Source of the DNA: Ekhidna lutea
GTDB lineage: Bacteria > Bacteroidota > Bacteroidia > Cytophagales > Cyclobacteriaceae
Direction: 5' to 3'
DNA length: 64,000 nt
Assembly: GCF_900188325.1 (NCBI RefSeq)
Contig: NZ_FZPD01000003.1
Location: 434,001 to 498,000, forward strand
The first letter of the stretch is position 1. Each line of letters starts with the position of its first letter. Made by a program: the position numbers and the translations under genes. Shown here piece after piece: positions 281 through 4,889 of this stretch. The notes beneath the pieces were generated by a model, which was given only the letters and a program-made list of their open reading frames with translations, did no database searches and was not told where the DNA came from.

Positions 281-320
281 CCATAAAATTGAAAGTCATG
301 CTGAATTTATTTCAGCATCT
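257..320. repeat. Pair of dispersed palindromic repeats between hisD and hisC-hisB
   Basis: Two imperfect palindromes of about 25 bases: 257-281 (core CCTGAAACAAGTTCAGG) and 295-320 (core GCTGAATTTATTTCAGC). The first supplies the hisD stop codon. Related copies occur at 1954-1978, 2011-2036, 17114-17139 and 19906-19945. They resemble intergenic palindromes that are common in Bacteroidota genomes; each could form a short RNA hairpin between cistrons. Confidence 0.8.
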
Positions 321-337
321 ATAAATAATTAAACAAG

Positions 338-1945
338 ATGTTTGATATAAATAAAATCACACGCGAAAATGTCAAAGCACTCAAACCATATTCGAGTGCA
401 CGAGACGAATTTGATGGAGTTGCAGAGGTATCATTAGATGCAAATGAAAATCCTTTTGGGTTTGGACTAAACCGCTACCCTGACGGAGCAATGAGTGGTT
501 TGAAAGCTGCCATCGCTAAGTATAGGAATGTAGAGATCCCTCGATTAATCTTCGGAAATGGAAGCGATGAATTAATTGACTTGCTTATTCGTGCCTTTTG
601 TGAGCCGGGTCAGGACAAAGTCATGATCTTTCCGCCAACTTTTGGTATGTATAAAGTGGCCGCTGATGTAAACGACGTAGAGGTGATTAGCGAACCATTG
701 ACTGATAATTTTCAAATAGATTTCGAGAGCCTGCAACCCAAGTTATTAGATGAAAATCTGAAGATCATTTTCATCTGTTCACCAAATAACCCAACGGGCA
801 ATTGTATTAACAAGGATACAATTCTATCAATCACCGCTGCTTTTTCCGGGTTGGTCGTGATTGATGAAGCTTATATTGATTTTGGAGAGGAAAGCTTGGT
901 GCAGGAAGATATTTCTAACCTGTTTATCCTACAGACATTTTCAAAAGCATTGGGACTGGCCGGGGCTAGACTGGGTATTGGTTTTGGATCATCTGAGGTG
1001 ATCAATGTGTTGAACAAAATCAAACCGCCATACAACGTCAATACATTGACGCAGGAAAAAGCAATTGATGTTTTGAATAGACCTGAGTTAATCAAGAAAC
1101 AGGTTACGATACTGATTGAAGAGCGAGAAAAGATGGAGCAAGAGCTAAAGGGCATTCCCTCAGTGAAAAAGATTTATCCTTCGGATGCCAATTTCTTACT
1201 GGTTGCTTTTGTAGATGCTCAAAAAACCTATGCAGATCTGATGGCAAAAGGTATTGTAGTTCGTGATCGTTCCGGTCAGGTGCCAAATACTTTAAGAATC
1301 ACGATAGGTATACCAACAGAAAATCAACGCCTGATTGCTGCTCTCAAAGAAGAGAAGTACGAAGAAAAGGGTAGAATTGGAAGGTGTGTTCGGGCCACCT
1401 CAGAAACGAAAATCAAGATTGAAGTCAATTTGGACGATCCTACCAAAACATCCATATCTACTGGTGTGGCATTCTTTGATCACATGCTCGATCAAATAGC
1501 AAGACATGGAGCAATTGGTCTCCATGTGGAGGTTGAAGGTGACATTCACATCGATACGCACCACACCATTGAGGATACAGCGTTGGCATTGGGCACAGCA
1601 TTCAACGATGCATTGAAGGATCGAAAAGGAATCGAACGATATGGATTCCTACTACCAATGGATGATTGCCTGGCTCAAGTGGCCATCGATTTTGGTGGGC
1701 GACCATGGCTGGAATGGGATGCTTCTTTTGATGCAACGCACGTAGGCGAAATGCCAACTGAGATGGCTTCTCACTTCTTTAAGTCATTCTCAGATACTGC
1801 CAGATGTAATTTGAATGTGAAAGCAGAGGGTGAGAACGATCACCATAAGATCGAGTCGATATTCAAAGCATTCGCGCGTGCCATTAAGATGGCGGTGAGA
1901 AAGGATGATAGTGGAGTGTTGCCATCAACAAAAGGAGTGTTATGA
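338..1945 (+). CDS. hisC: HisC-HisB fusion: histidinol-phosphate aminotransferase / imidazoleglycerol-phosphate dehydratase
   Basis: A 535-residue single frame. Residues 1-345 are a complete PLP aminotransferase HisC: SPNNPTG at 148-154, DEAY at 176-179, the PLP lysine in [13 protein letters not shown] at K203, and a C-terminal RITIG arginine segment. From about residue 350 the protein is a complete imidazoleglycerol-phosphate dehydratase: DHMLDQ at 381-386, HHTIED at 408-413, DHHKIES at 501-507, ending PSTKGVL. In this phylum HisB is normally a separate gene with an N-terminal HAD histidinol-phosphate phosphatase before the dehydratase; that phosphatase half is missing and the join is at the domain boundary. 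So steps 6 and 8 are on one chain, and the enzyme for step 9 is not in the window. No stop or frameshift separates the domains. Confidence 0.93.
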
Positions 1946-2705: not shown

Positions 2706-3428
2706 ATGCGAATAATACCAGCCATAGACATCATCGAAGGAAAGTGCGTTCGTCTTTCTAAGGGAGATTACGCAACGAAGAAAATTTACAATGAAGACCC
2801 GCTTGAGGTTGCTAAGCAATTTGAAGATGCAGGTTTGCAGTACCTTCATTTAGTTGATCTGGATGGTGCGAAAGCCAAGCACATTGTAAACTGGAAGGTG
2901 TTGGAGAAACTGGCAACAAAAACACATCTGAAAATTGATTTTGGTGGAGGGATCAAGTCAGATGAAGATCTAAAGGTTGCTTTTGAAAGTGGAGCGAAAC
3001 AGATTACCGGAGGTAGCATCGCAGTAAAAGAACCGGTGAAATTCACCTCCTGGATTATGGCCTATGGTGCAGAAAAAATTATTCTTGGAGCAGATGCTAT
3101 GGACAGCAAAATTGCGGTATCTGGCTGGCAGGAAGAATCCGACCTTGAAATTGAAAGTTTCATTGAAGACTATGTGACCAAAGGAATTGAATATGTGATT
3201 TCTACGGATATCTCGAAAGATGGTATGCTGGAGGGTTCTTCGTTTGACCTTTATGAATCAATTCTAAAAAAACTACCAGAGTTGAAGCTGATTGCCAGTG
3301 GAGGAGTTAGTTCTATTGACGATTTAGTCAAGTTAAAAGAGCAAGGTTTGGAAGGAGCGATTGTGGGGAAAGCGATTTATGAGAATAGAATTAGTTTGAA
3401 GGAATTGGGGGAACTAACATCCCCCTAA
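2706..3428 (+). CDS. hisA: ProFAR isomerase HisA
   Basis: 240 residues, (beta/alpha)8 barrel. It isomerises the ProFAR intermediate to PRFAR, the substrate of HisF. Catalytic aspartates are D8 (IPAIDI) and D168 (STDISKDG), with D130 in LGADAMD at the same point as in HisF; the phosphate sites DFGGGI and ASGGVSS are seen. The last residues (LTSP) and stop codon come from the start of a CCCCCTAACCCCC repeat at 3418-3450, a second case in this operon of a repeat supplying the 3' end of a gene. Confidence 0.96.
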
Positions 3429-3531: not shown

Positions 3532-4287
3532 ATGTTAAAAAAACGAATCATACCGTGCTTAGACATCAAAGACGGACAAACCGTAAAGGGTGTCAACTTT
3601 GTGGACATCCGTGGTGCCGGAGATCCAATCGAGCTGGCGAAACGCTATGTGAAAGAGGGTGCTGATGAGTTGGTGTTTCTGGACATCACAGCGACGGTCG
3701 ATGAACGGAAGACCTTTGCAGCTTTGGTGGAAGAAATTGCGCATGAAATCAATATTCCATTCACCGTAGGTGGTGGCATCTCATCTGTAGAAGATGCCGA
3801 TGTATTGGTGAAAGCGGGTGCCGACAAGGTAAGCATTAACTCTGCGGCTGTCAGAAGACCTCAATTAGTCAAAGAAATCGCTGATGAATTTGGGAGTCAG
3901 TTTGTGGTAGTGGCCATAGATGCAGGTCTGGTAGATGGTGAGTGGAAAGTATTTGTAAAAGGAGGGCGTGAGGCCACAGAGCTGGATGTTTATGATTGGG
4001 CCAAACAGGTGGAAGCCTTAGGAGCGGGAGAAATATTATTGACTTCCATGGCCAATGATGGCACTAAGAATGGGTTTGCTTTGGAGCTGACCGGAAAGTT
4101 AGCAGCTGATTTAAATATCCCTGTCATTGCATCAGGTGGAGCAGGAAGTAAAGCACATTTCGCAGAGGTGTTTGAAAAAACAAAAGCAACAGGTGCTCTG
4201 GCAGCCAGTGTGTTTCATTTTGGGGAGATACCGATACCAGAATTGAAGACCTTTTTAAGAAATAAGAAGTTAGAAGTTAGAATATGA
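3532..4287 (+). CDS. hisF: Imidazole glycerol phosphate synthase, cyclase subunit HisF
   Basis: 251 residues, (beta/alpha)8 barrel paralogous to HisA. Catalytic D11 (IPCLDIKDG) and D130 (VVAIDAG) are both present; phosphate-binding VGGGIS at 79-84 and ASGGAGS near 200. Together with HisH it converts PRFAR to imidazole glycerol phosphate and AICAR. It follows HisA after a repeat-bearing spacer of 103 bases and precedes hisIE by 23 bases. Confidence 0.97.
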
Positions 4288-4310: not shown

Positions 4311-4889
4311 ATGAAACAACAAGAATTGATACCAGCAATCATTCAACATGCTGAAACCAACCAGGTACTTATGCTTGGCTACATGAACGATGAATCGCTT
4401 GCGAAAACCAAAGAAGAAGGTAAAGTCACTTTTTACAGTCGATCAAAGAAGCGACTCTGGACGAAGGGCGAGACTTCAGGTAATTTTCTGAATGTTACGA
4501 GCATCCAGGAAGACTGTGATAACGATACCTATCTGATCAAAGTGATTCCTGAAGGAGACACCTGTCACAAGGGAACTTATACCTGCTTTAGAGAAAAAGA
4601 GCCAACCGGTTTCTTACATGAGTTGCAAGGGGTAATCCAGTCAAGAAAAGACAACCCATCTGAAAAGTCATACACCACAGAGCTTTTCCAAAAGGGAACC
4701 AAGAAGATTGCCCAAAAAGTGGGCGAAGAAGCAACAGAAGTAATCCTGGAAGCAATGGATGGAAAGAAAGATTTGCTGATCGAGGAGTCTTCGGATTTAC
4801 TATATCACTTTCTTGTATTGCTAGCGGATCAGGGATTAAAGCTGGAGGATGTGGAGGCTAAATTGATGGAGCGGCATTTGAAGAAGTGA
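4311..4889 (+). CDS. hisI: Bifunctional phosphoribosyl-AMP cyclohydrolase / phosphoribosyl-ATP pyrophosphohydrolase
   Basis: 192 residues. Residues 1 to about 105 are the PRA-CH domain (LMLGYMNDES, FYSRSKKRLWTKGETSGN, then metal-binding DCDND and the cysteines of GDTCHKGTYTC). Residues from about 108 are the PRA-PH domain (KSYTTELF, EEATEVILEA, DLLYHFLVLLA). It performs steps 2 and 3 of histidine synthesis. Last gene of the operon; the next gene is convergent with its stop only 4 bases away. Also called hisIE. Confidence 0.96.
   Translation: MKQQELIPAIIQHAETNQVLMLGYMNDESLAKTKEEGKVTFYSRSKKRLWTKGETSGNFLNVTSIQEDCDNDTYLIKVIPEGDTCHKGTYTCFREKEPTGFLHELQGVIQSRKDNPSEKSYTTELFQKGTKKIAQKVGEEATEVILEAMDGKKDLLIEESSDLLYHFLVLLADQGLKLEDVEAKLMERHLKK

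Follow-up and report, generated by a model that had tools for sequence, protein, structure and literature searches.

Gene fusions of the histidine pathway are a much-used model for the origin of multifunctional enzymes, as set out in the accessible parts of PMC1963479 and PMC8305728. Imidazoleglycerol-phosphate dehydratase (IGPD) catalyses step 6 of the pathway, the aminotransferase HisC step 7 and histidinol-phosphate phosphatase step 8 (PMC3896937, accessible part); section 3.2.2 of PMC8305728, in the portion available, interchanges the numbers of phosphatase and dehydratase, and the available portion of PMC1963479 gives eighth and sixth. The closest described relative of the protein reported here is bifunctional HisB (HisNB) of Enterobacteria, Campylobacter and Bacteroidota, in which a phosphatase of the HAD family (step 8) precedes the dehydratase; according to the accessible text of PMC8305728, hisNB is present in all 72 Bacteroidetes studied. 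The Ekhidna lutea protein has a homologous dehydratase, likewise C-terminal, and retains a remnant of the HAD-IGPD linker, but its N-terminal partner is HisC (step 7), whereas the phosphatase is encoded at another locus. Relative to a stand-alone HisC and a monofunctional HisB (IGPD), the families and conserved residues are the same, although here they are contained in one polypeptide with a ten-residue linker. No HisC-dehydratase fusion came up in searches of open-access papers, nor is a HisC fusion mentioned in the accessible part of PMC8305728; the strings hisC-hisB and hisCB, considered as possible fusions, were operon formulas where checked.

Architecture of the fusion and its operon

The window, a stretch of 64,000 nucleotides of E. 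lutea (assembly GCF_900188325.1, contig NZ_FZPD01000003.1, positions 434,001 to 498,000), contains a single open frame of 535 residues (338-1945, + strand) comprising a complete HisC (residues 1-340), a ten-residue linker (341-350) and a complete dehydratase (351-535). The original prediction that one frame joins HisC to the dehydratase is thus borne out, both halves scoring above their NCBIfam cut-offs, and the fusion of HisC with the dehydratase half of HisB is confirmed. The gene is part of an operon of the order hisG-hisD-[hisC-IGPD]-hisH-hisA-hisF-hisIE, which occupies the window as follows:

2-280, + strand: 3' end of hisD, a gene that begins upstream of the window (whole gene at L002:8889-10280)
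338-1357, + strand: HisC half, residues 1-340 (TIGR01141, 342.3 bits; K203 in the SK motif presumed to bind PLP)
1358-1387, + strand: linker, residues 341-350 (remnant of the HAD-IGPD linker; mean pLDDT 77)
1388-1945, + strand: dehydratase half, residues 351-535, plus stop codon (PF00475, 201.1 bits; NF002111, 245.5 bits)
2046-2624, + strand: hisH (TIGR01855, 219.9 bits, cut-off 105.4)
2706-3428, + strand: hisA (TIGR00007, 253.4 bits, cut-off 228.95)
3532-4287, + strand: hisF (TIGR00735, 345.9 bits, cut-off 294.55)
4311-4889, + strand: hisIE (NF002747, 282 bits, cut-off 187)

Pfam places Aminotran_1_2 at residues 43-335 (E 9.9e-57) and IGPD (PF00475) at residues 375-516 (E 1.1e-59; cut-off 27 bits), and reports the HAD family nowhere in the 535 residues. 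The NCBIfam model TIGR01141 (hisC) matches residues 9-338 over model positions 1-348 of 349 (cut-off 276.55 bits) and NF002111 (IGPD) matches residues 346-535 (cut-off 231 bits). The bifunctional HisB model NF003937 covers residues 304-535 only and remains below its cut-off (305.4 versus 443 bits); the chain lacks the defining HAD domain that in HisB/HisNB precedes IGPD. A separate complete hisB was looked for in the 99%-complete genome and none was found, the fusion being its sole IGPD match. Since IGPD is step 6 and HisC step 7, the fusion couples consecutive steps, rather than the non-consecutive steps 6 and 8 that had been proposed, which are the pair of the ancestral HisB.

K203 of the HisC half aligns with the SKAF motif of E. 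coli HisC (1fg3), and we take it, within its SK motif, to be the PLP-binding lysine, with D176, Y179, N151, R211 and R320 presumably belonging to the active site. All six residues are identical in the nine uncut copies of the genus, as are H382, H390, H408, H409, E412, H479, H502, H503 and E506 of the dehydratase half. These nine are the putative ligands of two Mn ions, mapped by motif after the His/Glu pattern given in the accessible part of PMC10978614.

Within the linker, three of ten columns are identical in the nine genus copies. A 13-residue stretch of this region aligns with PRKGKIERRTSET in the HisNB of G067, the HisC tail passing into the old HAD-IGPD linker. The AlphaFold2 model of the fusion has a mean pLDDT of 90.0 and a pTM of 0.68, residues 341-350 averaging 77; low confidence is confined to residues 21-50 (53-62) and 521-535 (57 and 38). 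Median dN/dS for pairs with dS under 2 was 0.094 for HisC (1/36 pairs), 0.037 for IGPD (3/36), 0.071 for the stand-alone HAD described below (5/36) and 0.37 for the linker (12/36), while median pN/pS over all 36 pairs was 0.31, 0.14, 0.22 and 0.44, respectively; as most pairs are saturated, these values are a rough sign that HisC, IGPD and HAD are maintained and that the linker is freer.

A 26-27-base element, GTCATGCTGAA..TTTCAGCATCT, flanks the fusion gene (window 294-320 before it and 2010-2036 after it), with two matches at up to three mismatches in 64 kb versus 0.00 expected. HisD of E. lutea, just upstream of the window, carries an in-frame insert of ~31 residues (L002:9345-9456, G000:C7) that is absent from five other aligned HisD sequences of the genus and from G067, although at this point G003 HisD is longer by a few residues. 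Because its DNA contains CCTGCCTGCCGGCAAGGCAGG, the insert resembles a palindromic repeat element that is translated. The hisD frame of G007 (L266:10051-11856) continues for a further ~150 residues, as would result from insertion of an element at the stop codon, and its tail appears to us to resemble a DUF559-type domain.

Distribution of the fusion

The fused frame was searched for in 59 genomes (E. lutea itself, nine of the same genus, 27 of the same family and 22 of the same order). It is present in all ten genomes of the genus, nine times at full length and once cut by a contig end (G002). The other nine copies are 69-83% identical to that of E. lutea, and the nine full-length genes all measure 1605 nt, stop codon excluded, including the one from the single-contig genome G005. 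Among the matches listed for the other 49 genomes, none spans both halves. A further search covered 395 genomes drawn evenly from the phylum, with three candidates scored per genome and matches listed down to ~283 bits, such that weaker fusions could be missed; three full-length matches were among those listed, E. lutea and two genomes of one other genus (G273 and G460), both of which carry a HisC-IGPD fusion.

That a HAD-IGPD HisB is usual in Bacteroidota, as had been assumed, agrees with 73 of 80 loci chosen for similarity, which combine a separate hisC with a HAD-IGPD hisB, and with the 72/72 Bacteroidetes of PMC8305728 (accessible part). Of the 80, four pair hisC with an IGPD in which no HAD is recognised, one carries its HAD and its IGPD in separate frames, and two are fused, namely L033 (a Bacteroidales MAG) and L034 (an Alphaproteobacteria MAG by title). 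The suggested mapping of relatives gave the fusion in 10/10 genus genomes and HAD-IGPD in 28/28 loci fetched for other genera of the family sample.

Frames of 733-801 residues in G017, G027, G036 and G048 suggested a triple HisC-HAD-IGPD fusion, which was ruled out in the two loci read (L021 and L032), where hisC and hisNB are two frames with one stop codon between them. The two genes often abut in the same frame in this way (L021, L032 and several others); a change in the single stop codon would give HisC-HAD-IGPD, none of which was seen among the loci examined. The HisB of the Bacteroidetes MAG SZAS-56 (L106:4972-5937) has a shortened N-terminal part, with ILIDLDTIIR where HisB has FIDRDGT; here the HAD half seems to be degenerating in the absence of a fusion. 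L067 (labelled as a Rhodobacteraceae MAG) groups with Flavobacteriaceae and L060 (labelled Flavobacteriaceae) falls inside Pedobacter in the trees of HAD and IGPD, and both labels are probably wrong.

A stand-alone HAD gene and the origin of the two loci

The phosphatase half had been presumed lost, which is correct for the operon copy, where HAD is missing, but not for the genome, since a stand-alone HAD gene, intact in E. lutea, is present elsewhere in 10/10 genomes of the genus. In E. lutea it encodes 173 residues on another contig (G000:C11:323565-324086; L114:1492-2013). On TIGR01261 (hisB_Nterm; cut-off 140) the protein reaches 168.9 bits; it is under the cut-offs of the GmhB models (56.8 versus 149.6 and 87.2 versus 178 bits) and has E. 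coli HisB-N (2fpr) as its best solved relative. The TIGR01656 cut-off is passed in nine of the ten genomes, the G002 copy, cut by a contig end, falling below it. From these matches, step 8 is predicted to be carried out by this HAD histidinol-phosphate phosphatase. Its C-terminus, WKEIYEYLIG, corresponds to the point where HisB enters the linker, and the linker of the fusion matches what comes next in bifunctional HisB; as the two ends meet, both genes taken together amount to nearly one HisC plus one HisNB. A second HAD in G009 (L113, 625-residue frame) was rejected as HisB-type, being nearer to GmhB (150.4 versus 48.8 bits, both below cut-off). This frame (L113:817-2694) comprises a nucleotidyltransferase-like domain, the GmhB-like HAD and a further C-terminal stretch; the latter presumably contains a P-loop-like motif, and we take the adjoining frame to be kinase-like.

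In a sample of 60 genomes of the family, 57 matched the HAD. Two genus members did so with the stand-alone frame and 54 of the 58 genomes of other genera with frames of 363-429 residues (49-67% identity), G081 gave a weak match in a 135-residue frame and three genomes gave none. A convergent neighbour gene lies next to the stand-alone HAD in eight of the nine genus loci that were read at length, the remaining one being cut short by a contig edge, with a gap after the HAD stop of 111, 21 and 46 nt in three of the eight. The neighbour, which has no Pfam family, forms frames of 141-157 residues overall and is also found, again convergent, after hisNB in three of five sister genera (G089, G071 and G078; 149-157 residues; 41-59% identity), with no match beside hisNB in G016 and G063. 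When HisG, HisD, HisC and IGPD were searched by tblastn in nine genus HAD loci, nothing better than E 0.18 was returned, so the rest of the native cluster appears to be gone from that site. The stand-alone HAD is probably, judging by these neighbourhoods, a relic of an earlier his cluster.

The operon occupies a different site. Upstream of hisG, a block of aspS, a 186-residue frame, a deaminase and a superoxide dismutase is found in 6/6 genus stretches (the names aspS, tadA and sodA were assigned by us from Pfam families). The block is collinear in four of the five sister genera (G016, G089, G063 and G078), with no match to his genes beside it in their fetched stretches; in G071 the match is limited to the aspS side, and neither the deaminase nor the dismutase gene adjoins aspS. 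The sister genera carry a hisG-hisD-hisC-hisNB cluster (G016, G089, G071 and G063) or, in G078, hisNB apart from hisDC. Among 15 non-genus stretches fetched, hisH, hisA, hisF and hisIE are also present only in G067 and G025, while G033 and G047 have hisF within ~4 kb of hisC. One clear HisF copy (78-100% identity) was found in each of seven genus genomes searched, G009 having in addition a 37% relative; with a single copy, the native hisF seems to be gone too.

Phylogenies of the two loci disagree. AspS, used as the single species marker, groups the genus with G016, G089 and G071 (support 98/95) and rejects its union with G067 (AU p 7.5e-5). The HAD tree likewise places the genus with G016, G089, G071, G063 and G078 (100/99) and rejects G067 (p 2.4e-4), with the genus HADs forming one clade of modest support (68/92); unlike HAD, AspS leaves G063 and G078 outside the clade holding the genus. 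HisG+HisD unite the genus with G067 (99/95) and with G025 (98/98) and reject its placement with G016, G089, G071 and G063 (p 1.6e-4). HisF groups the genus with G047 (98/92), its placement with G016, G089 and G071 being rejected (p 5.6e-4; p 7.6e-4 with G063 and G078 added). For HisC the same three-genus placement is rejected (p 0.0017) and that with all five sister genera weakly so (p 0.046), whereas IGPD alone is compatible with native placement (p 0.42 and 0.16); taken together, HisC+IGPD place the genus with G067 (97/85 in one tree, thinned by seven rows, and 92/89 in another). Stem lengths are 0.70 for HisC, 0.43 for IGPD, 0.32 for HisF and 0.12 for HisG+HisD; because the first two are long, the displacement of HisC and IGPD could partly reflect a change of rate, and HisG+HisD and HisF carry the argument. 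The nearest relative is G067 for HisG+HisD and HisC and G047 for HisF, and given this variation no donor is identified.

The clades tested were named after the trees had been seen, except for the sister placement, which AspS predicted. The IGPD set was restricted to domains over 100 residues (118 IGPD, 117 rows), and the partial G078 and the cut G002 HAD were left out of the HisG+HisD and HAD trees, respectively. In these comparisons the operon genes and the stand-alone HAD have different ancestries.

Proposed history and relation to known fusions

It is very likely that a native cluster and a foreign operon met in this genus and that complementary halves of their hisNB genes were kept, giving a bifunctional HisC-dehydratase and a separate HAD for step 8. 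In the ancestor of the genus, the arrival of a further and complete hisGDC[NB]HAF[IE] operon, now located behind the superoxide-dismutase gene, would have added to a native hisG-hisD-hisC-hisNB cluster. With two hisNB genes present, the loss of different halves would have been harmless: in the operon the phosphatase half of HisNB would have disappeared, so that hisC came to be in frame with the dehydratase, and the native cluster would have lost hisG, hisD, hisC and the dehydratase half, its phosphatase half staying behind. G067, in which hisC and hisNB are separate but overlapping, with the hisNB start codon inside the end of hisC, illustrates a suitable starting point, from which the fusion would be reached by a single in-frame deletion of about half a kilobase.

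It is possible, though distinctly less likely, that the operon came from an unsampled donor with the fusion already made, so that the fusion would have preceded rather than followed the transfer, and that the native cluster then shrank to its phosphatase half. Fusions do exist elsewhere (L033, L034, G273 and G460). The combined HisC+IGPD tree, built from the 69 of 72 chosen loci with both domains, needs four changes to account for them. Grouping the genus with L033 (p 0.68) or with L183 and L184 (p 0.63) was not rejected by the AU test, the constrained trees having the higher likelihood, and for this reason no number of fusion origins is claimed. Against a pre-fused arrival, L033 sits on a long branch with at most 55% identity to any row, and G067, the nearest relative for HisG+HisD and HisC, has the two genes unfused.

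Plain fission within one genome, in which a resident hisNB split, its HAD moved away and its dehydratase joined hisC with no foreign operon involved, would agree with the HAD terminus ending where the linker remnant of the fusion starts and with a dehydratase half that, taken alone, may be native. We consider it improbable, as HAD and the operon genes give conflicting, AU-rejected placements, the neighbour of native hisNB has been kept by the HAD gene and not by the operon, and the sisters carry four his genes in a hisGDC[NB] cluster, as against a full operon at a different site in the genus. The simple local deletion in a resident operon that had originally been envisaged does not account for these trees and neighbourhoods either.

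Even less probable is a deletion that removed the phosphatase half from the genome, with an unrelated phosphatase taking over step 8, as had also been expected. This is possible in other lineages: in the 2.0-Mb MAG of L033, whose completeness is unknown, neither a HisB-type HAD match nor any HAD above the TIGR01656 cut-off was found, but it encodes a HisJ-family PHP protein (143.2 bits, cut-off 90.2), whereas G273 and G460 have one HAD each over that cut-off, that of G460 (L222) being closest to GmhB (171.8 bits versus a cut-off of 178; hisB_Nterm 71.9 versus 140), and the L034 genome has none. Another phosphatase may therefore serve step 8 in fusion lineages of the L033 and G460 type, in keeping with the original prediction. 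In the genus, however, the HisB-type HAD occurs in every genome, and hisJ-type PHP (TIGR01856) was found in 0/10, with a control that matched 10 of 14 genomes, six of them over cut-off. The two PHP matches in E. lutea lie in frames of 1413 and 1006 residues and were discarded, as were two inositol-phosphatase-like proteins of the same genome that miss the HisN cut-off (143.9 and 119.1 versus 275.15 bits). Finally, although several genus genomes are fragmented drafts, the assembly or sequencing error that the prediction had asked to be checked is excluded for practical purposes, the ten genomes sharing the fusion at the divergence given above and nine, one of them a single contig, showing the same junction and length.

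In the two-locus history favoured here, the C-terminal half of the fusion would dehydrate imidazole-glycerol phosphate (step 6) and the N-terminal half would convert its product into histidinol phosphate by transamination (step 7). IGPD enzymes assemble as octahedral 24-mers, whose outer face in the plant enzyme carries the N-terminal sheet (PMC10978614, accessible part), and HisC is a dimer (PMC3896937, accessible part). HisC could therefore sit outside the cage; the surface of an octahedral particle offers 12 two-fold positions, which 12 HisC dimers could fit. The fuller proposal, which we put forward tentatively and with more doubt than confidence, is that two hisNB genes of different ancestry each keep one half and that a dehydratase 24-mer (~1.4 MDa, estimated) may carry 24 HisC (12 dimers) outside and hand imidazole-acetol phosphate directly from step 6 to step 7. 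Channelling by the fusion is a possibility. Since a non-consecutive pair (6 and 8) has been turned into a consecutive one (6 and 7), whether this brings channelling, stoichiometry or nothing can be tested against the sister genera.

The whole genus departs from the hisNB rule for Bacteroidetes given in the accessible part of PMC8305728. The arrival of a second operon is suggested to have relaxed both copies, such that two bifunctional genes were cut to complementary halves, and the case warns that, when an operon lacks one half of an enzyme, that half can persist elsewhere as what is left of a displaced cluster. Like hisIE, hisHF (HIS7), HIS4 and the multi-enzyme protein of Acanthamoeba, several of which serve consecutive steps, the fusion unites pathway enzymes in one chain; none of the his fusions described in the accessible parts of PMC1963479, PMC8305728 and PMC6029752 includes HisC. 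The fission of multifunctional genes, for example of folate genes (PMC4224340, accessible part), is comparable in that domains become separate genes, as here. Unlike in folate-gene fission as presented there, the surviving his pieces sit at two loci of different ancestry, and the locus is best read not as a loss but as the redistribution of the functions of one bifunctional enzyme over these two loci, accompanied by a new fusion of consecutive steps.
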